36,792 nucleotides of DNA from Deltaproteobacteria bacterium SM23_61 (GTDB taxonomy: Bacteria; Desulfobacterota; SM23-61): assembly GCA_001304105.1 (NCBI GenBank), contig LJUR01000014.1, forward strand, positions 1 through 36,792, written 5' to 3'. The notes beneath the pieces were generated by a model, which had not been told where the DNA came from, did no database searches, and worked only from the letters and a program-made list of their open reading frames with translations. Positions 3,635 to 15,216 of this stretch are shown piece after piece (positions within the stretch are counted from its first letter, which is position 1; every line of letters begins with the position of its first letter). Made by a program: the position numbers and the translations under genes.

Positions 3635-4618
3635 TTATTTTTTAAGAGCAATCCCCGCCATCTTGGCAATCCTTCCATAGTCTTTATGCATCATGGCCAG
3701 CCATTTTCCGAAGGCCTCGCCTTTGATGAATTTGAGATCCGTTCCGCGGGATTCCAGAAGTTTCAAAAACTCCGGATCTTTGCTCACCTTTTCGAAGCCA
3801 TTAATCAGAAAATCCACAATTTCTTTCGGCGTCCCTTTGGGGGCCGCGATCCCTCGCCAGGAAACCACGTTCGCCTGATACCCGAGTTGGAGGGTCGTGG
3901 GAACCTCTTTCATGGCGGCAAAACGATTTTCCGCAATGATCGCCAGCGTCTTCACCTTCCCCGCCTGGACATGGGGAAAAATCTCTGAGGCACTTGTGAT
4001 CGTGGCGTCCAGATGCCCGCCCAAAAGGGCGGTAATCGAAGGGCCGGCCCCCTTGTAGGGAACGTAGGTAAGCTTCAGGCTCGCGGCATGGGCCAGCGCT
4101 TCTCCTGCCAGATGCCAAGGGCTTCCCGTCCCCGCTTGTCCGACCCGAAGCTTGCCGGGATTCGCTTTGGCTGCTTTAATGAAATCTTCCAGGGTTTTGT
4201 ACTTGCTGTCCGCCAAAACGCTGATGCAGGAGGGAACGACGGCAACCAGAGCGATGGGTTCATAGTCCTTATAGGTTACCGGATATCCTTTGGTAATATG
4301 GGGGGCAATGGTCAACGTGGTGACAATGAAGGTTAAAACATACCCATCCGGCTTGGCCTTGGCACCATAGTTAAAGCCGATGGCCCCCGCGCCTCCGGCC
4401 CGGTTGGTCACAAAAATGGTCTCCCCGATATACTTGGAGCCGTATTGCGCGACTGCTCTTCCCAAAATGTCGGATCCGCCCCCGGGGTTAAAGGCCACGA
4501 CCAATTCAATCTTTTTTTTCGGATAGTCCAGGGCTACCGACGAGCCCTGAATGACGAATACCGCAAGTACGGTTGCGATCAATCCCATAAGCCACTTTTC
4601 TTTGAAAACTTTGCGCAT
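3635..4618 (-). CDS. tctC: Tripartite tricarboxylate transporter substrate-binding protein (Bug/TctC)
   Basis: Signal peptide then YPKKKIELVVAFNPGGGSDILGRAVAQ...GGAGAIGFNYGAKAKPDGYVL...VPYKGAGPSITALLGGHLDA, typical Bug motifs. Confidence 0.93.
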   Translation of the reverse strand: MRKVFKEKWLMGLIATVLAVFVIQGSSVALDYPKKKIELVVAFNPGGGSDILGRAVAQYGSKYIGETIFVTNRAGGAGAIGFNYGAKAKPDGYVLTFIVTTLTIAPHITKGYPVTYKDYEPIALVAVVPSCISVLADSKYKTLEDFIKAAKANPGKLRVGQAGTGSPWHLAGEALAHAASLKLTYVPYKGAGPSITALLGGHLDATITSASEIFPHVQAGKVKTLAIIAENRFAAMKEVPTTLQLGYQANVVSWRGIAAPKGTPKEIVDFLINGFEKVSKDPEFLKLLESRGTDLKFIKGEAFGKWLAMMHKDYGRIAKMAGIALKK

Positions 4619-4702
4619 ATCTTTCCTCCTTTTTTTGTTTTTGTAAGTGGTTGGTGCTTCGCTATTTCCCTCCTTTCCTCCTGGATTCTCTTCCCAGTCG
4701 AT

Positions 4703-6174
4703 TCACCGTCTTTGGGCAACCGAACGAAAAGCCCGTTTCATCCATGGTGCCACAAAGGGCAGAATCGTCAAGACCAACAAGACGGTGCTGATGGGCGTAA
4801 AAAATTTGAAAAAATCTCCTCCGCAGAGCAAAACGGTTCTGGCAAAGTTGGTCTCCACCATTCCACTCAGGATCATGCCAATAATCAGGGGGGCACGGGG
4901 AATGTTGGTCTTTATCCCCCGATCCCGGAGAGGGCCATCACGTAAACATCGAACATGTTGTTCCGCAGGGAAAAAGAGCCGGCGAAACAAAGGAGCAGGA
5001 TGATGGGGCTTAAAAGGTAGTTGGGCACCCGCGAAATCTTGGCGAAGAATTTCGCCAAGGTTAGACCGAAGACGAGCATCAAAACATTCGCCACACCCAT
5101 TCCCAGGATCAGTTTCCAGACGAGTCCCATCTGTTTGCTCATCAAGAGGGGCCCTGGCTGGAGGCCGTGAACCATGAAGGCTCCCATGATGATCGCCGTC
5201 ACCGCGCCTCCCGGGATCCCGAGAGTGAGAAGGGAAATCATGGTGCCACCCGTGGCGGCGTTGTTGGCCGATTCTGGACAGGCGATCCCCTCCGGGTAGC
5301 CGGTTCCGTAAAGTTCGGGATGCTTGGAAAGATTGCGCCCTTGGCTGTAGGATATGATAGCGGCGATGTCGGCCCCCGTTCCGGGTACCGCACCCACGAT
5401 CAGGCCCACCCCCGAGGAGCGGAGGATGGGGAGCCGGAGATTCCTGAATAGGGAAGGGGGGGGAAAAATTCTTTCAATCCTGGGGATCTTCGGGCGGATG
5501 GCCGAAAGGGCCTCGATATTCATCAATATCTCGGGGATGGCGAACATGCCGATCATCACCGGCATGTAGGGAATGCCCCCCAGAAGGTTGCTGTTTTCGA
5601 AGGTAAACCGGGGAATCCCGTGAATTTCATCGATCCCGATGGTGGCCAGGAAGATCCCGATGCCCGCGGCCAGCAGACCCTTCGGCAGAGACTTCCCGGA
5701 AAAATGAGCCACGGCCGCCAGGGCAAATATCCCCAGAGCAAAATATTCTCTTTCTCCGAAGGCCAACCCTAGAATCGCGATGGGCCGCGAGACCAGGGCC
5801 AGGACGATGACGCTGACCATGCCGCCCACAAAAGAAGAGATGGTCGCGATCCCGATCGCTAACCCGCCTTCCCCTTTCTTGGCCAAGGCATTTCCGTCGA
5901 AGATGGTCGCCACGGCGGCGGGCGTACCGGGAATGCCCAGGAGGATCGCTGAAATCGACCCTCCGTACACCGCCCCCACGTAGATGCCCAACAACAGCAT
6001 AATACCGGGCAACGGGTCCATGACGAAGGTCAGCGGGGAAACCAGGGCGACCCCCAGCGTTGCCGACAATCCCGGGAGGACCCCGACGATGATTCCCGTC
6101 ATCACCCCCTCGGCGATGATCAGAAGGATGGGCCAATCCAGAACCGCTCCTATATGGGAGAAAAACGCGTCCAT
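4703..6174 (-). pseudogene. tctA: TTT permease TctA, reading frame broken near its C-terminus
   Basis: Frame 4912-6174 encodes TctA (GVLPGLSATLGVALVSPLTF, GIPGTPAA, VPGTGADIAAIISYSQGRN) and stops at ...MALSGIGG*; the TctA C-terminus (KTNIPRAPLIIGMILSGMVETNFARTVLLCGGDFFKFFTPISTVLLVL) continues in another frame in the ORF ending at 4703. Confidence 0.85.
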
Positions 6175-6194
6175 TTTCGGTCCCTCAGGGAAAC

Positions 6195-7505
6195 TTACGG
6201 AAATACGACATTAAAGAGCATGGAAAAAATCCCGTAAACCGCAATTGTCACCATGCCGGAAGTCACCAGGATTCGGGCAAGCGCCGGCCGGATTCTCCAA
6301 GGATAGAGAAGCAGGCTTGCGGCGATCATAAACACGAACGCCACAGGAATGAAACCCGTAAAAGGGACAGTCAAAATGAACAGGGTGAACACGCCGATGG
6401 TCCCTAAGACCCGGTAAAGGTTCATCCGGTCTTTTTCTGCCCGGCCATCCTCCTGGACCCCCAGCTCTTCAAAGATTGCCTTCTGCACCGATAGAAGCCG
6501 GCAAAAGGCTTCCGGCCCCCGGATGTATTCGGCCTCTTTTCTCTCGATGATTTCCTGCCGGAGCATTTTCAGGTTTTCCGGTTTGGTCAGGAGGGAAAAA
6601 ATCCGTTCCCCTGCGCTCGGTTCCGCTTTCCTCGGCAGCCCCAAACCCACCCATGTCCCCGAGACGAGATTGGCTCCCAGTTCCTGAAAGGTGGGGGTCC
6701 GGGGCAGGCTCGGGAGGCGTTCGGGACTCGCCACCGCTACGATATCGAAATGTTTGAGAATCTCCTCATTCTGCAAAAAAACCGTCAGGGGAAGGAGCCC
6801 CGCCGAGATGGTTCCCTCTTGCAAGGCATCCAACATCGCAGGTGAATCGTCGAACCAGACCCCACGGACCTCCCGGCCCCTCCCGGTCAAGGCCTCCCCC
6901 AGATAATAAGGAAGGTCCCGGCGATGACAAAAACCTATGGGCGGGTCTTTTGACCCTCCAAGAATCGCCTCAAGGCTCAATCGCTTCGATTCTTGGCTTT
7001 CGACCCGGGTCCCCACAATAACATCAGGGTCAAAAAGCACTCCCATGACCGGAAGGAATTTTTCCAGTGTTTTTAAAGCCCCCAAGAAATTCGGAGCCGT
7101 AGCTTGATCGTTGGTGATCACCGTCAGGGTCTTTCCATCCGGTGCAGCCATGGATCCTTTATACTGGGCGGAAAAGTAGCCTTCCCCTGGATGGTTCTCG
7201 ACCACCCAGGGACTCTTTATTTCCTTGGTCAGAAGGTCGGCAATCTGGTTGACCAGGAACCCCTTGCCGCTTCCTGCGGCAAAGGGAGAAAGGAGGCGAC
7301 ATTCAGGAGGGGAAAAAGCTTTGAGGATGATCAAAACGGTCATAGCCATGACGACGATGAGGATAAAGAGGGGGAAAACCCCCGGGCCCACGGTTCCGGC
7401 GACATGGCTTTCAAACTGGGCCAAATCCAGGAGCATAAAAATGGAGAGTCCGATGACCCCCCCCATGAGAAGGATGACCGGCAAATCAATTTTTTTTGGT
7501 CTCAT
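6195..7505 (-). CDS. TctB-family membrane protein with inserted Bug/TctC-like substrate-binding domain
   Basis: N-terminus is TctB-like (two TMs, GTVGPGVFPLFILIVV); residues ~72-355 look like a full Bug domain (SPFAAGSGKGFLVNQIADLL, WVVENHPGEGYFSAQYKGSMAAPDGKTL, LPRTPTFQELGANLVSGTWVGLGLP); C-terminus returns to TctB-like TMs. Confidence 0.8.
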   Translation of the reverse strand: MRPKKIDLPVILLMGGVIGLSIFMLLDLAQFESHVAGTVGPGVFPLFILIVVMAMTVLIILKAFSPPECRLLSPFAAGSGKGFLVNQIADLLTKEIKSPWVVENHPGEGYFSAQYKGSMAAPDGKTLTVITNDQATAPNFLGALKTLEKFLPVMGVLFDPDVIVGTRVESQESKRLSLEAILGGSKDPPIGFCHRRDLPYYLGEALTGRGREVRGVWFDDSPAMLDALQEGTISAGLLPLTVFLQNEEILKHFDIVAVASPERLPSLPRTPTFQELGANLVSGTWVGLGLPRKAEPSAGERIFSLLTKPENLKMLRQEIIERKEAEYIRGPEAFCRLLSVQKAIFEELGVQEDGRAEKDRMNLYRVLGTIGVFTLFILTVPFTGFIPVAFVFMIAASLLLYPWRIRPALARILVTSGMVTIAVYGIFSMLFNVVFP

Positions 7506-7549: not shown

Positions 7550-8935
7550 TCAGGCGAAAAACTGGAGCAGCGAGAGGAGCTCCTTTTGGTTTTCCAGATT
7601 TTCAACGAAATCGAGAATTTTTTCCCCCCTCTCCTCTGGCAAGGGAGGCTGCGCGAATCCCGCGCAGCGGCGGAATTTTTCCTCGACTTCCTGCAGGGTC
7701 AACGGATTGTCCGGGCTTCCCTTGCGTTCGAGGACTTTCCGGCGAAGCCTTTCTCCCTTTTTCGTCCGCAGTTCAACGACGGCCGGCGAAACGTAACTTT
7801 GAAAATCCTTTTCCAATTGGCCGTCCACGAGGCAGTCGACCCGTTGGGCCATCTTGAGAACTTCCGGGTTACGGATCTCCTCCATCGTAAAATCATCCAG
7901 GAAGACCTTCTTTCTTACCAGGGCAGCGGCCACTGTATAGGGAAGGCTGAATTGCGCCTGGGGAATCGTCTCGGGCATGCGCGTCTTTTCCAAGGGCAGG
8001 CACACAAAATTGAATCCCTGCTGGTTCACTTTGACCATGACCCCATCCACGTCATCGGGGGTCAAATCCCGCTCGGCGAGGATATCCAGGACGGCATCGA
8101 TGGCCGCGTGCGTATGCATGCAACAGGGGTACTTTTTCAGGGTCACATGAACTCCTTCGAATTTTTCCCCGAGACCTTCCAGAAGATGCCTGCGGTCGTA
8201 TTGGCCGCGGTGATAAACGGGATAATATCCGAATTTTCCTTCCAGAACCTCTTTGGCTGCGGTAAGGCCTCCCCGGGCAAAAACCCCCGCATAAATACCC
8301 GCTTGAGCGGCCAATCCCTGACAAAAGCGCGTCGCCAGGGTTCCCTCCAGGAGGTTTTGGGAATTCCCCGAGGTCTGGCTGTAGGCCAGGCCCATGGCAT
8401 GAATCATTTTTTCCTCATCCAGCCCGAGAACCCTTCCGACCACTCCGGCGCACCCAAAAGCGGCATACTGGTACGTTACGTTCATGCCGCTCAGCCCGGA
8501 GGGAATCTTGTGGGTCCGGCCCATCCGGCACATCAGGTCGATCCCCAGGGTGACGGCGGTCAAAAATTCCCGGCCCTCCAAGCCGCCCCTCATTTCGGCG
8601 GCGGCCAGGGCCGCAGGGACGATCGAAGCGCTGGCATGCATCGTACCGGGCTCAAAGACATCGTCGAAGTCCACCGCCCGGGCCATCATGCCGTTGGCCA
8701 GAGCAGCCAGGAAAGCCGGGACCTTCCTGCGCGACCGGAAGATCGTGCTTTCTTCCTTCCCGCCCCATTCCAGCGCCTGGGCAACGACCTCGGGGCAACC
8801 CTGGGCGTTCGTCCCCGCGAACATGGCCGCAAATGTATCCAAGACGCTCTTCTTCGTGGCGGCGTGAACCTGGGGTGGAATATCTTCAAACTGAATCCCG
8901 ATCAGGTTTCGAACCAATGGAACGATGGCGTCCAT
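7550..8935 (-). CDS. MmgE/PrpD family protein
   Basis: 461 aa; VHAATKKSVLDTFAAMFAGTNA, MMARAVDFDDVFEPGTMHASASIVPAALAAAE, KKYPCCMHTHAAIDAVL are MmgE/PrpD-type motifs. Confidence 0.92.
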   Translation of the reverse strand: MDAIVPLVRNLIGIQFEDIPPQVHAATKKSVLDTFAAMFAGTNAQGCPEVVAQALEWGGKEESTIFRSRRKVPAFLAALANGMMARAVDFDDVFEPGTMHASASIVPAALAAAEMRGGLEGREFLTAVTLGIDLMCRMGRTHKIPSGLSGMNVTYQYAAFGCAGVVGRVLGLDEEKMIHAMGLAYSQTSGNSQNLLEGTLATRFCQGLAAQAGIYAGVFARGGLTAAKEVLEGKFGYYPVYHRGQYDRRHLLEGLGEKFEGVHVTLKKYPCCMHTHAAIDAVLDILAERDLTPDDVDGVMVKVNQQGFNFVCLPLEKTRMPETIPQAQFSLPYTVAAALVRKKVFLDDFTMEEIRNPEVLKMAQRVDCLVDGQLEKDFQSYVSPAVVELRTKKGERLRRKVLERKGSPDNPLTLQEVEEKFRRCAGFAQPPLPEERGEKILDFVENLENQKELLSLLQFFA

Positions 8936-9010
8936 CGCCGAGTTCCTTTCCCGCCCCCCCTCAAGGGCAAAAGGACGGAATGGGCCTTCCGATCCAATCC
9001 GCCCGGAGGA

Positions 9011-9838
9011 CTAATACTTCTGGTATTTTTGCTGCCGGGGCGGCGATTTTTTCATATTCAGCCCCATCTTCTCCCCGAGGTCCCGGTACTTGGGCTTCAG
9101 GTCGTATTCCTCCTTGTACTCCTGGAGCATGGGGATCCCCCAGTTGTGTTTCTGCAGCCAATGAATCCCCTTGATGAAATCAGGGAGCATTTCCGGAACG
9201 ATGGTGAATAGGATCTCGTCATCCTGGGCAGCCGCCAGGCGGCGGTCCCCCTTGCACGGAATGGCGATCTGGCATTCCCGCTTCAGTAAAGAGGGGACCG
9301 TGGCGTACACGCAAGCCGCATGGCCGGAGAGCTGGGCGTGGATGTCCTTGCCGTCGATCCAGTTTTTCACGATGATCAACTGGCTGGTCTGCATGCCGTT
9401 GACATGCATGACAATGACGTCAGGCATGAAATTGCAGGTATGGGCCGGGGCGGACACGATCCCCTGGTACCGGCCATACTCCAGGTGGGGCATGTTCTTG
9501 CACCATTCGGATGCCGCCTTCAGGTCCCGCACACTGTCCGGATAGCGGTGATGCCCCTCGAGGAAATACGGGGTGTGCTCCACCAATCCCAGGCCGATGG
9601 CCGGCTCCACGCACCAGTTGTCGTTTTTAAACATGGCGATCGTCAATCCGTCCCGCTGCGAACGGGCGAAGGCCTGGCAGAGGGAATACTTGTGCTTCCA
9701 GTCCCGGGTGGGGATAATGGCTCCTTGGGGAACCTCCTTCTTATTTTTCAGCATCTTGACGGCAATGGGATGCACCCGCATGCGCAGCCACTGCTCGAGC
9801 TCTTTGCTGCATTCGTGAATTTTCTTAAGTGATATCAT
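9011..9838 (-). CDS. DUF169-like protein
   Basis: MISLKKIHECSKELEQWLRMRVHPIAVKMLKNKKEVP...SLCQAFARSQRDG resembles DUF169 N-termini; start placed at 9838 rather than 9967. Confidence 0.65.
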   Translation of the reverse strand: MISLKKIHECSKELEQWLRMRVHPIAVKMLKNKKEVPQGAIIPTRDWKHKYSLCQAFARSQRDGLTIAMFKNDNWCVEPAIGLGLVEHTPYFLEGHHRYPDSVRDLKAASEWCKNMPHLEYGRYQGIVSAPAHTCNFMPDVIVMHVNGMQTSQLIIVKNWIDGKDIHAQLSGHAACVYATVPSLLKRECQIAIPCKGDRRLAAAQDDEILFTIVPEMLPDFIKGIHWLQKHNWGIPMLQEYKEEYDLKPKYRDLGEKMGLNMKKSPPRQQKYQKY

Positions 9839-9969
9839 GTTTTTCCTCTTCCCCTGACTCGGCCTCCTTTTCCCTTTCCCTCGATTCATTCCCTTTGACC
9901 TCCCTTTGTTTTTTTGCCTTGTTTGATCCAGGCTCCTTGAGGTAACACCTGTGAGAACCGTCTTCAAAT

Positions 9970-10728
9970 TTATCCATCCAGCATCCTCGAGCCCCTCTTC
10001 CCGGATTTCCCCTTCGGCGCCGATGGGGGACCGACAATCCTTCCTTTCTTCTCGATTTTCAATTTCTGGGCAAGAAATTCCACTGCCTGGCTGTAGTGGG
10101 CTTTCATGAGCGCCCGGATTTTTGGCAGGTCTTTTTCCTTGCAGGCCTGCAGCATCCGCTGGTGCTCCACAATGGATCTTTCCATTCTCACCTGGTACAG
10201 GGTCAGGTTTTGGAACCAGCAGGTTCTTTTATCCGCGTCGCAAAAAATCTCGTAGAGCTTTTGATTGTTCAGGCTCTTGGCGATTTCGTGATGGAATTGC
10301 CAGTTAACCTTGCGGTAGCCCTCCACATCCTGCTTTTCGACCCGCTGCTTCATCTCCCCGATCAATTTGGCCAGATCACTGAAAAAACCTCTGTCCGGCT
10401 GGAGAGATTTTTCACCGAGTGCAGATGCCTCGATCAATTCTTTGATGGAATAATTTTCCTCGATTTCTCTTCGGTTGATCCCGATGACTTCCCGCCCTTT
10501 CCGGTTTCTTCCCGTGGCGATCACCAATCCCCATCGCTCCAGGCTGAGCAGGGCCTCCCGCACGGGGACGCGACTGATCTCCAGCCGGTCCGCAATTTCC
10601 CTTTCGATCAGCCGGTCTCCCGGCTTGATCTTCCCGGAAAGGATCTCTTCTTCCAGAATCCTGAAGACCTGCTGGGCGATCGTTTGGACCGGTTTAATGA
10701 TCTTTCTTCGGTTCATCCTGCTACCCAT
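9970..10728 (-). CDS. GntR family transcriptional regulator (FCD subfamily)
   Basis: VFRILEEEILSGKIKPGDRLIEREIADRLEISRVPVREALLSLERWGLV is a canonical GntR wHTH; helical FCD-like C-terminus. Confidence 0.93.
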   Translation of the reverse strand: MGSRMNRRKIIKPVQTIAQQVFRILEEEILSGKIKPGDRLIEREIADRLEISRVPVREALLSLERWGLVIATGRNRKGREVIGINRREIEENYSIKELIEASALGEKSLQPDRGFFSDLAKLIGEMKQRVEKQDVEGYRKVNWQFHHEIAKSLNNQKLYEIFCDADKRTCWFQNLTLYQVRMERSIVEHQRMLQACKEKDLPKIRALMKAHYSQAVEFLAQKLKIEKKGRIVGPPSAPKGKSGKRGSRMLDG

Positions 10729-10736
10729 CCGGACCC

Positions 10737-11132
10737 CTAGCGATACCGGGCGCCGCTCAGAACATTTACCAGGTATCCCTTCCCCCCGGCAAACCGGATC
10801 GCATGTTGCATCCCCGCAGGAACGAGAATCGAAGCCGGGCCCTTGACTCGATGTTTCTCCGCCCCCAGCATCACCTCCAATTCCAAATCCCCGAGAAGAC
10901 AGTACAATTGATTCACCTCGTGGGTGTGCAGGGAGGGGCCTGCTCTCAATTCATCCTTCACTTCCCGGTTCACCTGGCGCACCAGGAGGGTCACGTCCGA
11001 CTCCGGGACCATTTCGCGGTCCATGAATTTGAAGAGCGGACCGATCTCCTCCTCCATTTTGGGAATATCATGATGGACCAGCTCCTCGATGGCCTGCGGC
11101 TTCACGATGAATCTTTTCATTTTTTGTTCCAT
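10737..11132 (-). CDS. Cupin-domain protein
   Basis: 131 aa; GPSLHTHEVNQLYCLLGDLELEVML...VPAGMQHAIRFAG matches a cupin metal-binding core. Confidence 0.8.
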   Translation of the reverse strand: MEQKMKRFIVKPQAIEELVHHDIPKMEEEIGPLFKFMDREMVPESDVTLLVRQVNREVKDELRAGPSLHTHEVNQLYCLLGDLELEVMLGAEKHRVKGPASILVPAGMQHAIRFAGGKGYLVNVLSGARYR

Positions 11133-11156
11133 CGCCTGGCCTCCTCGGCGCTCCTG

Positions 11157-11960
11157 CTAGCCTGATACCGTCCGGGCCTCAATGGGGAGCTTTTGGAACT
11201 CCCTGACGTAATCCCGAATAAAATCCACCCACAGGGAAAGAATTTTTTCTCCTTTTTCTTTCGTGGCCGCCATCGGGTCGCCCATCACGCCGGATTTTGT
11301 CACCTCGTCGGACAGGTGGTAAGCATAGGCCGAGATTCCTTTGAAGGTCACCTGGGGGCTGCCCTTTTGGACGAAACTATCGATCCTGGCTTTGACGTAT
11401 TCTTTTTGGGCCTTGGTCATGTCCACCAATTCTGGGCGGAGCGCCAGCATGACGCTGGTCATGATCTCCCCCGCATGGAGAAACACTTTTTCCTTCAGTT
11501 CCGGGATGTCCTTCCCCATCTGATTGGCCGTCCCCCAGAGATTCACCATGCCAACCCGGGCCGCCGAACGGCGGACAAGCTCATGGGCCACCTCCATGAT
11601 TGCGGGATCATTTCCCACATGGGAATTGATGAACATGATCCGACGAAGTCCATGCTCCACGAGACCGTCGCAAATTTCACGCAAAACCTGGGTCAGCGTA
11701 GAAAGCCGGATGGAGAGGGTCCCGGGAAACCCCATGTGCCATTCCGAATAGGTGACCGAAACAAGCGGGGCGACCAAAAGTTTCGTCCCCGCGGCCACCC
11801 TTTTCGCAACCTCCAGGGCGACGATGGAATCAACACCCAGCGGCAGGTGGTAGCCTTCCACTTCCACCGACCCTGTGGGGATTAGAACCGTATCGGTTTC
11901 TTTTCTCGCCTCGACAAACTCCGTCCAGCTCATTTCTTCCAACAGTTTCTTTTCGACCAT
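11157..11960 (-). CDS. Creatininase family protein
   Basis: MSWTEFVEARKETDTVLIPTGSVEVEGYHLPLGVDSIVALEVAKRVA...FINSHVGNDP...LHAGEIMTS; ATG at 11960 avoids overlap with the TRAP permease gene. Confidence 0.88.
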   Translation of the reverse strand: MVEKKLLEEMSWTEFVEARKETDTVLIPTGSVEVEGYHLPLGVDSIVALEVAKRVAAGTKLLVAPLVSVTYSEWHMGFPGTLSIRLSTLTQVLREICDGLVEHGLRRIMFINSHVGNDPAIMEVAHELVRRSAARVGMVNLWGTANQMGKDIPELKEKVFLHAGEIMTSVMLALRPELVDMTKAQKEYVKARIDSFVQKGSPQVTFKGISAYAYHLSDEVTKSGVMGDPMAATKEKGEKILSLWVDFIRDYVREFQKLPIEARTVSG

Positions 11961-11997
11961 TCCTTGTTTCCTCCTTTTCCGAGTTCGGTTTCCGCTT

Positions 11998-13983
11998 TCA
12001 ACGTGGAAGGCGATTCCGATCTTTTGCAAACCATGCCCTGGGCGGGCGAAAGCCCCCGCTGAACCAATCGTCAACCTTCGCAGAGTAGGGAAATATTTTT
12101 TGAATTCCAATGAGGGTACCGAACAGCCCGAACCCAACGGCGTCGGTCAGCAGCCCCGGTTTGATCAAAACCAAGGAGGCGATCACCAACCCCGCTCTCT
12201 CCGGAATGGTTGCCCGCCTGAAAAGCCAGCCCTCCACGCCGGCCGAGAGGGCCACGATGCCGCAAACGGCCGTACAGAGGACCCAAAGAACATAGGGAGC
12301 CCTGCCGATCATTAACATGGAAGGATCATAGACGAACATGAAGGGAACGATGAAGGCGGCGATCCCGATGCGGCAGGCCGCGAAACCGGTGCGCATGGGA
12401 TTGGCCCCGGAGATCGCCCCCGCGGCGAAAGCCGCCAGGCAAACAGGCGGGGTAATCGCCGAGATGCAGCCGAAATAGAAACAAAAAAGATGGGCGGCGA
12501 TGGGCTTGACGCCCAATTCGAGCAAGGCAGGGACGACGATCGTCACCAGGGTAAGGTATACCGCCGTAGCCGGCATGCCCATGCCCAGGATGATGGAGGC
12601 GATCATCACATAGACCAGAGTCAACCAGAGTTCGCCTCCCGCCGCCATGACCAGGATATGCGCGAATTTCATCCCCAACCCCGAGATGTAAACCGACCCG
12701 ATGATGATCCCCGCGCAGGCGCAGGCCATGCCGACCGTGACCGCCGCCCGGGATCCTTCCTCCAGCGCGGACAGGAATCCCACCGGGTTGAGCCGGGTTT
12801 CTTTTTTCAAGGAGCTGAACAGAAGCAGGCAGAGAATGGCCCAAAAAGCGGCCATCATCTCCGTATAACCCAGAGCCAGAAATAGGATCAGCGCCACGAC
12901 GGCAATGAGAAGGTGTCCTCCGGCGGCAAGGGTCTTTCGGAAGGATGGCAGATCCTTCTTATCGATCGGCCTCAATCCTTCTTTCTTGGCCTCGAAATGG
13001 ACCATCATCATCACGGAGGCGAAATAGAGCACGGCCGGGATCAAGGCGTGGATGCAGACCTGCAGGTAGGGGACAGAGAGAAACTGGGCGATAATGAAGG
13101 CGGCCGCTCCCATGATGGGGGGCATCAGGATGCCGCCGGTGGAGGCGACGGTTTCCACGGCCCCGGCGAAAAGAGGGCGATAGCCCACGGATTTCATCAA
13201 AGGGATGGTGAAAGATCCCGTCGCGACCACGTTGGCCACGCCGCTCCCGGAAAGCGTCCCCATGAATGCGCTGGCCAGGACCGCTGTTTTCGCCGGCCCG
13301 CCGGTCAGGCGCCCGGCGATGGAATAGGCCAGGTTGATGAAAAAATTCCCCGCCCCCGTCCGAATCAGGAAGGAGCTGAAAAGAAGAAACAGGATAATGA
13401 ACGACGAGACCACCATGAGAGGCAAAGAAAATAGGGCGATGTCGCTGAAGGTCACATCCACGAACCGAATCCAGGGAGTGGGCGGGCTGTTCAGAAGTCC
13501 CGGGAAATAATTGCCGAAGACCGTATGAATGATGAAAAATCCCGTAATGATGACCATCGGCCAGCCAACGGTCCGCCGGGTGGCCTCCAGGACCAAAAAG
13601 ATGGCGGCTGAACCCACAAGGGTATCCATCCGGGTGGGGGCGCCCCAGCGAAGCTGAAGTTCGTCGAGGTCATACAAAATATACACTTCGATCCCGACCG
13701 CCAGCAGAATCAGGAGGACATCCAGAAAAAAAAGCCCCCGAAATGCCTGCGGGCGGGAATTTCCCCGGAAGGGGTGGAGAAAGAAAGTAAGGACCAGAAT
13801 GAAGGTGAGAAAAGCGGACCGGTGTGCCAAGGCCGTGGGCTCGCCAAAGTAGGCCGTAAAGAGATGGTAGAACCCCATATAAACGGCAATCAATGAAATC
13901 AGGATGAGCCGGAGGGTCGCCGGGGAAATTTTTTCTGCGGCGAGAAAACACTCGAAAAAGCTCTCTCGTTTGAAGGGTTCCAT
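11998..13983 (-). CDS. TRAP transporter fused 4TM/12TM permease (TAXI-associated type)
   Basis: 661 aa polytopic protein; GTLSGSGVANVVATGSFTIPLMKSVGYRP, GVEVTASTGGILMPPIMGAAAFI-like segment, GMGMPATAVYLTLVTIVVPAL, AITPPVCLAAFAAGAISGANPMRTGFAA. Confidence 0.93.
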   Translation of the reverse strand: MEPFKRESFFECFLAAEKISPATLRLILISLIAVYMGFYHLFTAYFGEPTALAHRSAFLTFILVLTFFLHPFRGNSRPQAFRGLFFLDVLLILLAVGIEVYILYDLDELQLRWGAPTRMDTLVGSAAIFLVLEATRRTVGWPMVIITGFFIIHTVFGNYFPGLLNSPPTPWIRFVDVTFSDIALFSLPLMVVSSFIILFLLFSSFLIRTGAGNFFINLAYSIAGRLTGGPAKTAVLASAFMGTLSGSGVANVVATGSFTIPLMKSVGYRPLFAGAVETVASTGGILMPPIMGAAAFIIAQFLSVPYLQVCIHALIPAVLYFASVMMMVHFEAKKEGLRPIDKKDLPSFRKTLAAGGHLLIAVVALILFLALGYTEMMAAFWAILCLLLFSSLKKETRLNPVGFLSALEEGSRAAVTVGMACACAGIIIGSVYISGLGMKFAHILVMAAGGELWLTLVYVMIASIILGMGMPATAVYLTLVTIVVPALLELGVKPIAAHLFCFYFGCISAITPPVCLAAFAAGAISGANPMRTGFAACRIGIAAFIVPFMFVYDPSMLMIGRAPYVLWVLCTAVCGIVALSAGVEGWLFRRATIPERAGLVIASLVLIKPGLLTDAVGFGLFGTLIGIQKIFPYSAKVDDWFSGGFRPPRAWFAKDRNRLPR

Positions 13984-14051
13984 TTGTAGACCTCTACTGC
14001 CCTTTGGCGAGAAGAGGGACGCCTCGTCCCTCTCCCCTTTTCACCCCACCG

Positions 14052-15035
14052 TCACTTCACCAGTCCTTTTTCCTTGAAATACCGCATGGCCCCGGGATGG
14101 ACGGGAATCATATTGCCGATCAGCGGCGTGTTCATGGCCATATCTTTGGCCGGAACATACTGATGGTATTTTTTCTGATTCTCGGCAACCGCCTTGGCGA
14201 TTCGATAGACCAACTCCTCGTCCAAGTCCGCACGGCAGATCAGGGTTGTCACCGCCATAATGCTGTGGACATCCTCCTTCTGATCTTCGTCGAAGGTTCC
14301 TTTGGGGACCACGAGTTCCGCGATGCCCGGAGTGGCATCGAGAATTTTTTGGATATGTTTCTGATCCATGGACAAGAGCTTGATCCCCGGGCTCACCTTC
14401 AGGTTCAGAAAATTGGCGTGATTCAGCGGAAACATACAGGCAATCGCATCGAGATGCTTGTCCTTCAACATATTCACCCGCTCGCGATCGCCCAGGATAT
14501 TCACCACTCCTCCCTTGGCCTTGATGCTGTCGAAGGTGATCCCGTAGGCCTTGAGCGTAGCCTGAGACAATACGTAGGTCGTCTGCCCCACCTTGGCGGG
14601 CGAAATCTTTTTGTCGGCCAGGTCCGCGAGCGAATTGATTTTACTTTCCTTGCGTACCACCCAGACGAAGGGAAGGGAATACATGGAAATGAGGTGGCGA
14701 ATCTCCTTATGGGGTTTATCAAAGGGCTTTACCCCCTGGTAAGCCTGCACCTGGGTGTTGGAAAGGCACATGCCGACCTGGCCGCCCCCGCCCTGGAGCA
14801 ATTTCGCGTTGGCCACTCCCCCGCCGGGACCGGGCTTGGTGGTCAGCGCCGGGATTGCCTGGTGGATAATCTCCGCCGTCAATGAAGCCACCGGGTGCCA
14901 GCCGCCCCCCAACGATCCGTTGTAGACCGTCAGGTAAGACATCTTCGGCTTCCATTCCGCGTTGGCGGCAACGGCAATCAGGAGGACACTCAAGAAAACA
15001 ACGAAACCGATCTTTCCCGTTTTTTTCCGGCTCAT
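14052..15035 (-). CDS. TAXI family TRAP transporter solute-binding subunit
   Basis: Signal peptide from ATG 15035; YLTVYNGSLGGGWHPVASLTAEIIHQ...KPGPGGGVANAKLLQGGGGQVGMCLSNT...IPVHPGAMRYFKEKG. Confidence 0.92.
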   Translation of the reverse strand: MSRKKTGKIGFVVFLSVLLIAVAANAEWKPKMSYLTVYNGSLGGGWHPVASLTAEIIHQAIPALTTKPGPGGGVANAKLLQGGGGQVGMCLSNTQVQAYQGVKPFDKPHKEIRHLISMYSLPFVWVVRKESKINSLADLADKKISPAKVGQTTYVLSQATLKAYGITFDSIKAKGGVVNILGDRERVNMLKDKHLDAIACMFPLNHANFLNLKVSPGIKLLSMDQKHIQKILDATPGIAELVVPKGTFDEDQKEDVHSIMAVTTLICRADLDEELVYRIAKAVAENQKKYHQYVPAKDMAMNTPLIGNMIPVHPGAMRYFKEKGLVK

Positions 15036-15216
15036 GAAGATCCCTCCTTTTCCTGAAAATTGGAGCGCATCAAATTTGGGTATCCCATCTTCTTTTACAA
15101 TTTCTTTTTTATCACCCCCATCCTTGTTGGATTGCGGAAAACCATCCAAAATTTCCCCCCCCTGACCTTCCTCTTCTTTCCCCCTTTTCATGGGAGAGGA
15201 TGCCAGCTCCGCACTC

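Follow-up and report, generated by a model that had tools for sequence, protein, structure and literature searches.

TTT transporters are encoded by tctA, tctB and tctC together. TctB (PF07331) is ordinarily a protein of ~150 residues with four to five TMs, and a published survey predicted that TctB N-termini are cytoplasmic (PMC5812351). According to a 2026 paper no TctB has been characterised to date (PMC13390454). The TctC/Bug receptors (PF03401; Bug27 2QPQ, BugD 2F5X, BugE 2DVZ and 4X9T) carry a signal peptide and are free extracytoplasmic proteins, and their canonical first pincer is P-F-x-A-G-G-x-x-D (PMC5812351). No structure of TctA or TctB was found in the copy of the PDB that was searched.

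In SBP-fused ABC importers, the SBP is joined to a transporter subunit and acts outside the cytoplasm. Importers can also carry cytoplasmic regulatory domains, as in MetN, where a substrate-binding C-terminal domain gives trans-inhibition. A TctA-TctB fusion has been reported for Paraburkholderia caribensis (PMC5812351), and the rare DctP-DctQ (P-Q) fusions in TRAP transporters (PMC8276074) are the nearest reported precedent for the protein described here. Neither a TctB-TctC fusion nor a cytoplasmic domain was found described in the open-access literature.

In this work, a stretch of 36,792 nucleotides from Deltaproteobacteria bacterium SM23_61 (contig LJUR01000014.1; referred to as the window) was analyzed. 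An open reading frame of 436 codons on the minus strand (6195-7505), here called tctB::bug, encodes a TctB with an internal TctC/Bug-fold domain. The parts of this gene, tctA, tctC, the MmgE/PrpD gene and the TAXI-TRAP genes discussed below are also on the minus strand. A TctB with a TctC/Bug-fold SBP in place of its TM2-TM3 loop is, as judged from sequence comparison and structure prediction, almost certainly a real architecture, and the transporter design is real, conserved in two phyla and no fewer than eight species, and apparently undescribed.

Comparison with described transporters

Like other TctBs, the fused protein contains the two TctB halves with five hydrophobic segments and, following TM1, the GxGPGxFP motif, and its gene shares an operon with tctA and tctC. 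It differs from them in the ~285-residue Bug-fold domain that stands in for a TM2-TM3 loop of ~20-30 residues. The insert shares with the TctC/Bug receptors the fold over their whole mature length, the P-F of the first loop, and the hinge strand with its conserved W and P. Unlike the receptors, the insert has no signal peptide, follows TM2 within a membrane protein, and is predicted to be cytoplasmic. The insert retains the canonical PFxAGGxxD only in part and lacks YKG, and it has its own signatures, GxGxFS and DP.

The TctA-TctB fusions (that of P. caribensis and two natural cases found here) also place TTT components in one chain, but they are end-to-end joins of two membrane subunits with no SBP domain. 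In the P-Q fusions and the SBP-fused ABC importers, an SBP is likewise attached covalently to a subunit of the transporter, which in the P-Q fusions is also a small membrane subunit. Compared by description, those SBPs act outside the cytoplasm, whereas here the SBP is a TM2-TM3 insert that is predicted to be cytoplasmic, and the tctB::bug operons keep a free secreted SBP too. The likeness to MetN-type domains is functional and unproved, and lies in the proposed role, that of an importer-attached domain which senses a ligand in the cytoplasm; the folds are unrelated, and an ABC transporter is compared with a secondary transporter.

Domain architecture and predicted structure

The original prediction described a protein that starts as a TctB, continues as a Bug receptor and returns to TctB. 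Against the Pfam profile of TctB, for which the cut-off is 29.1 bits, the window protein scores 44 bits. The match falls into two stretches that flank the insert, the best of which (residues 353-436) corresponds to profile positions 59-137. TM1 (residues 8-35; 7401-7484) is predicted to run from inside to outside, and TM2 (residues 43-63; 7317-7379) is preceded by the TctB motif GTVGPGVFP (residues 37-45), in which G40, P41, G42 and P45 are invariant in all eight fused proteins that are known. TM3-TM5 (residues ~355-434; 6204-6443) make up the C-terminal TctB half. These segments were recognized by hydropathy and by AF2/DSSP. The ordinary TctBs here are 148-168 aa long and lack such a domain, in agreement with the expected size of ~150 aa.

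The Bug/TctC-fold domain spans residues ~66-350 (6456-7310) and was identified by phmmer, alignment, AF2, Foldseek and a family profile. The TctC profile matches with 36 bits (cut-off 27) in two stretches, the best being residues 86-141; the family concerned is PF03401 and not PF03970, as had been written originally. Among the relatives, the homologue from genome G282 scores below the PF03401 cut-off and that from Thalassobaculum gives no score; their PF07331 scores are 43.5 and 38.1 bits, respectively. The only above-chance sequence matches in the PDB are Bug/TctC proteins, which cover residues 66-345 of the query (phmmer; 25hk, 1.6e-11; Bug27 2qpq, 1.1e-8). A six-member family profile matched TctC chains in the PDB with values up to 1.6e-25, always within the insert, and alignment with mature TctC proteins showed that the insert covers an entire mature Bug protein, beginning with its first strand and ending with its last helix.

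The AlphaFold2 model of the window protein, built from an alignment of 15 rows only and of moderate confidence (mean pLDDT 70.8), has an alpha/beta domain at 69-347, which is preceded by two helices (8-35 and 43-63) and followed by three (355-379, 386-400 and 407-434). The structural comparison that had been suggested as a check of the insert was run, and all 17 of the best Foldseek matches in the PDB are TctC/Bug chains (E 2.6e-15 to 1.2e-11; TM-score by target length 0.69-0.77). The TRAP and ABC receptors rank below these chains and are more distant.

Homologues and their rarity

A counterpart is found in G282, a genome of the same phylum that consists of a single 4.5-Mb contig, and is 32% identical over residues 3-436 (E 5e-67). 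Scoring in the large genome draws was limited to the four best candidates of each genome, so that the counts are lower bounds; on this basis the G282 protein is the sole other full-length homologue among 398 genomes of the phylum. A tblastn search against plasmids returned a third homologue, WP_322335086.1, which is followed by tctA and tctC on the complete, mobilizable plasmid of Thalassobaculum sp. OXR-137 and is annotated only as TctB family. Five further alphaproteobacterial homologues (G688, G772, G633, G1223 and G1237) came from genome draws, giving a total of eight open full-length copies in eight genomes of two phyla. With TctB pieces before and after the insert and the full-length architecture present in seven other genomes, the protein is, as had been supposed, one polypeptide and not the product of two genes merged in assembly.

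The fusion family is rare. At least 1 genome out of 64 in G282's class and at least 4 out of 395 alphaproteobacteria carry it. A draw of 399 genomes across the Pseudomonadota gave no fusion among the best four candidates per genome, the matches at E <= 1e-25 all being Bug proteins that stand alone. The insert is absent from every other one of the ~130 TctB matches in eight genomes of the window's class. TTT systems are abundant in the family to which the window belongs, with 8 to 27 TctB matches per genome (G000-G007).

Several candidates were rejected. The long TctB ORFs of L039 and L057 are TctA-TctB fusions, that of L040 is an upstream open frame only, and a match in Sneathiella (L026) from the contig scan is a chance match and not TctC. 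Viral contigs scanned with a two-member alignment gave an ordinary TctC only. Five IMG/VR contigs catalogued as viral (L105-L109) encode TctC/Bug-like receptors, of which L106-L109 are alike in their first loops.

Operon and neighborhood

The first gene of the conserved cluster encodes an MmgE/PrpD-family enzyme (7550-8935; PF03972, PF19305), whose orthologue next to the tctB::bug gene of G282 is 47% identical. The tctB::bug gene starts 44 bases after it, and tctA lies 20 bases beyond the end of tctB::bug and is followed by a separate tctC, so that TctA, TctB and TctC are encoded together at 3635-7505. The 12-TM permease TctA (4912-6174; PF01970, 471.6 bits) is 68% identical to the TctA of G282. 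The separate secreted TctC/Bug receptor anticipated in the same operon is indeed encoded there (3635-4618; PF03401, 189 bits over residues 54-319), and all eight fusion loci adjoin their own tctA and an orthologous secreted tctC.

The reading frame of the window's tctA is broken at its 3' end, near 4912, where there are ~ten bases fewer than in the G282 orthologue. The final ~66 codons are read in a different frame (4703-4914) and, at 4718-4915 of the window, are 60.6% identical to the C-terminus of the G282 TctA. The frameshift may be a true mutation or an error of the draft consensus. TctA is intact in G282 (498 aa) and full-length in Thalassobaculum (497 aa). Because the adjacent tctA is frameshifted, the window's copy of the transporter may not work; the fusion itself is independent of this frameshift.

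The gene order in G282 repeats that of the window: PrpD, TctB::Bug, TctA, TctC, creatininase, GntR and DUF169. This cluster of MmgE/PrpD, TTT, a creatininase-family amidohydrolase, a GntR regulator and a DUF169 protein is found at 7550-12137 of the window and at 9065-17004 of L048, and the window's copy additionally has a cupin. In the alphaproteobacterial loci, a TauD/TfdA-type dioxygenase takes the place of PrpD as the neighbor. Since the cluster enzymes differ (TauD versus PrpD/creatininase), no single substrate is implied. A second transporter that depends on an SBP, a TAXI-TRAP system consisting of a DctM-type protein of 661 aa and a TAXI receptor, is encoded at 11998-15191 in the same gene run as the TTT.

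Membrane topology

Five hydrophobic segments are present in ordinary TctBs and in all eight fused proteins, which places the C-terminus outside by prediction. The cytoplasmic N-terminus that had been proposed for the protein is supported as a prediction, and the TM layout is corrected to five segments. Lysine and arginine are frequent at the N-terminus, on either flank of the insert and between TM4 and TM5 (WRIRPALAR in the window protein, within 6204-6443, in the C-terminal TctB half). Few are found between TM1 and TM2, in the turn from TM3 to TM4 or at the C-terminus. In the fused proteins, they make up 66 of 349 residues of the inner segments versus 14 of 331 of the outer ones, counts from related sequences whose p-values are not independent. 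A cytoplasmic insert is favored in each of the eight, and the same positive-inside pattern was found in 12 ordinary TctBs. Two natural TctA-TctB fusions (L039, 3-1808, G005:C484; L057, 1486-3237, G360:C70) have K/R-rich linkers joining the two chains, which again would be inside. By these indications the insert very probably lies on the cytoplasmic face of a protein that is predicted to be N-in with five TMs.

Conserved residues and the ligand cleft

Seventeen residues of the insert are invariant in all eight proteins: S73, P74, F75, V102, G107, G109, F111, S112, G117, P152, D159, P160, G231, G283, W285, L288 and P291. Eleven of these are within the 46 of 285 positions that form the cleft loops or the hinge (p 4e-6). 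The cleft and hinge segments were picked from the AF2 model, and some of the conserved positions are general positions of the Bug fold. The invariant SPF (residues 73-75; 7281-7289) is in the 'pincer' loop between the first strand and helix, and the family signature GxGxFS (residues 107-112; 7170-7187), also invariant, is at the start of the domain's second helix.

The Bug landmarks that had been read in the insert are borne out for the fold over the full mature length and only in part for the canonical ligand signatures. At the first pincer, the window protein reads PFAAGSGKG; G-G is found in none of the eight proteins, the second Gly being absent from all, and the Asp is absent in the window and in G282. 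The Y-K-G of the second pincer is likewise found in none. Because the usual carboxylate-binding signatures are gone, ligand binding by the insert may be altered or lost. Since the invariant residues gather at the cleft and hinge while the canonical pincers are retained only in part or not at all, the sequences indicate a cleft that is kept, with a chemistry unlike that of the known carboxylate receptors.

Origin and evolution

Among 43 TctAs, those linked to the fusion form one clade with support of 100/100. A quick tree gathers the inserts and the cognate secreted TctCs into a clade each (SH-aLRT 99 for both), and the branches of the inserts are long. The TctA, TctC and insert trees branch alike, with the window and G282 together, and with G1237, then G633, and then Thalassobaculum/G1223 with G688/G772. 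As the three trees share their branching, the distribution looks like one old insertion inherited with one TTT lineage and not like repeated accidents; its presence in two phyla may reflect age or transfer. Two close pairs give dN/dS values of 0.14 and 0.19 for the insert, which indicates that it is maintained under purifying selection. At the protein level, its evolution is about two- to fourfold faster than that of the secreted TctC from the same operons (dN 0.084 versus 0.045 and 0.149 versus 0.035); rows for TctA, taken in wrong frames, are left out of this comparison.

Proposed function and alternative explanations

In the explanation that we consider likeliest, the secreted TctC would still take the substrate outside and TctA would still move it, and the inner Bug domain would be an inward-facing sensor or gate. 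The domain would close on a cytoplasmic ligand, either the imported substrate or its product, and its closure would change the state of TctB/TctA, for example by feedback inhibition or by promoting substrate release. It would not be a substitute for the secreted TctC, since that protein is retained in every operon. As a whole, the account of a TctB-borne Bug domain that acts as a cytoplasmic sensor or gate of a TTT is about evenly poised between right and wrong. Granted a cytoplasmic location, we lean towards the insert being a ligand-responsive regulator. We put forward with more hesitation the proposal that an SBP fold on the cytoplasmic face, where it binds the imported solute or its product, controls or drives the inner half of the transport process, the transporter having a Bug receptor on each side.

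Next in order is a cytoplasmic Bug domain that binds no small molecule and is a structural or docking module, stabilizing TctA/TctB or recruiting a pathway enzyme. The loss of the canonical pincer residues, the faster evolution of the insert relative to the secreted TctC, and the low or absent PF03401 scores in G282 and Thalassobaculum are consistent with such a module, but the invariant residues concentrate at the cleft and hinge, even if some of them are constraints of the fold, and we judge it rather unlikely. Least of the serious options, and improbable, is a reversed, N-out topology in which a periplasmic Bug domain is a tethered second receptor, as in the SBP-fused ABC importers and the DctP-DctQ fusions. 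SBPs normally lie outside the cytoplasm, and rare fusions of this kind are known in TRAP transporters (PMC8276074); however, the positive-inside pattern of the eight homologues and the 12 ordinary TctBs, the cytoplasmic N-termini predicted for TctBs (PMC5812351), the K/R-rich stretches that link the TctA-TctB fusions, the lack of a signal peptide before the insert, and the secreted TctC present in every operon all argue for the opposite orientation.

The insert could also be a decaying relic for which its transporter lineage has no further use, or the window's gene could be part of a dying operon, as the tctA frameshift and the long insert branches might suggest. Eight open copies in two phyla, the low dN/dS of the close pairs and the invariant residues within the insert speak against decay and make it very improbable. 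An assembly chimera of a tctB gene and a tctC gene would be conceivable in a draft of 286 contigs that is 88% complete and 7% contaminated, but the insert has TctB sequence before and after it, with each join in frame, and the single-contig genome of G282 and the complete Thalassobaculum plasmid show this architecture and order of genes as well, which refutes this explanation. The cytoplasmic sensor or gate thus precedes the non-binding module and the tethered receptor in our ordering.

Implications

A folded domain of a known kind on one defined loop provides a handle on the position of TctB and on sensing. Should the insert be both cytoplasmic and ligand-binding, it would represent an arrangement for which no description was found, SBP-type recognition from inside the cell that controls an SBP-dependent secondary transporter.
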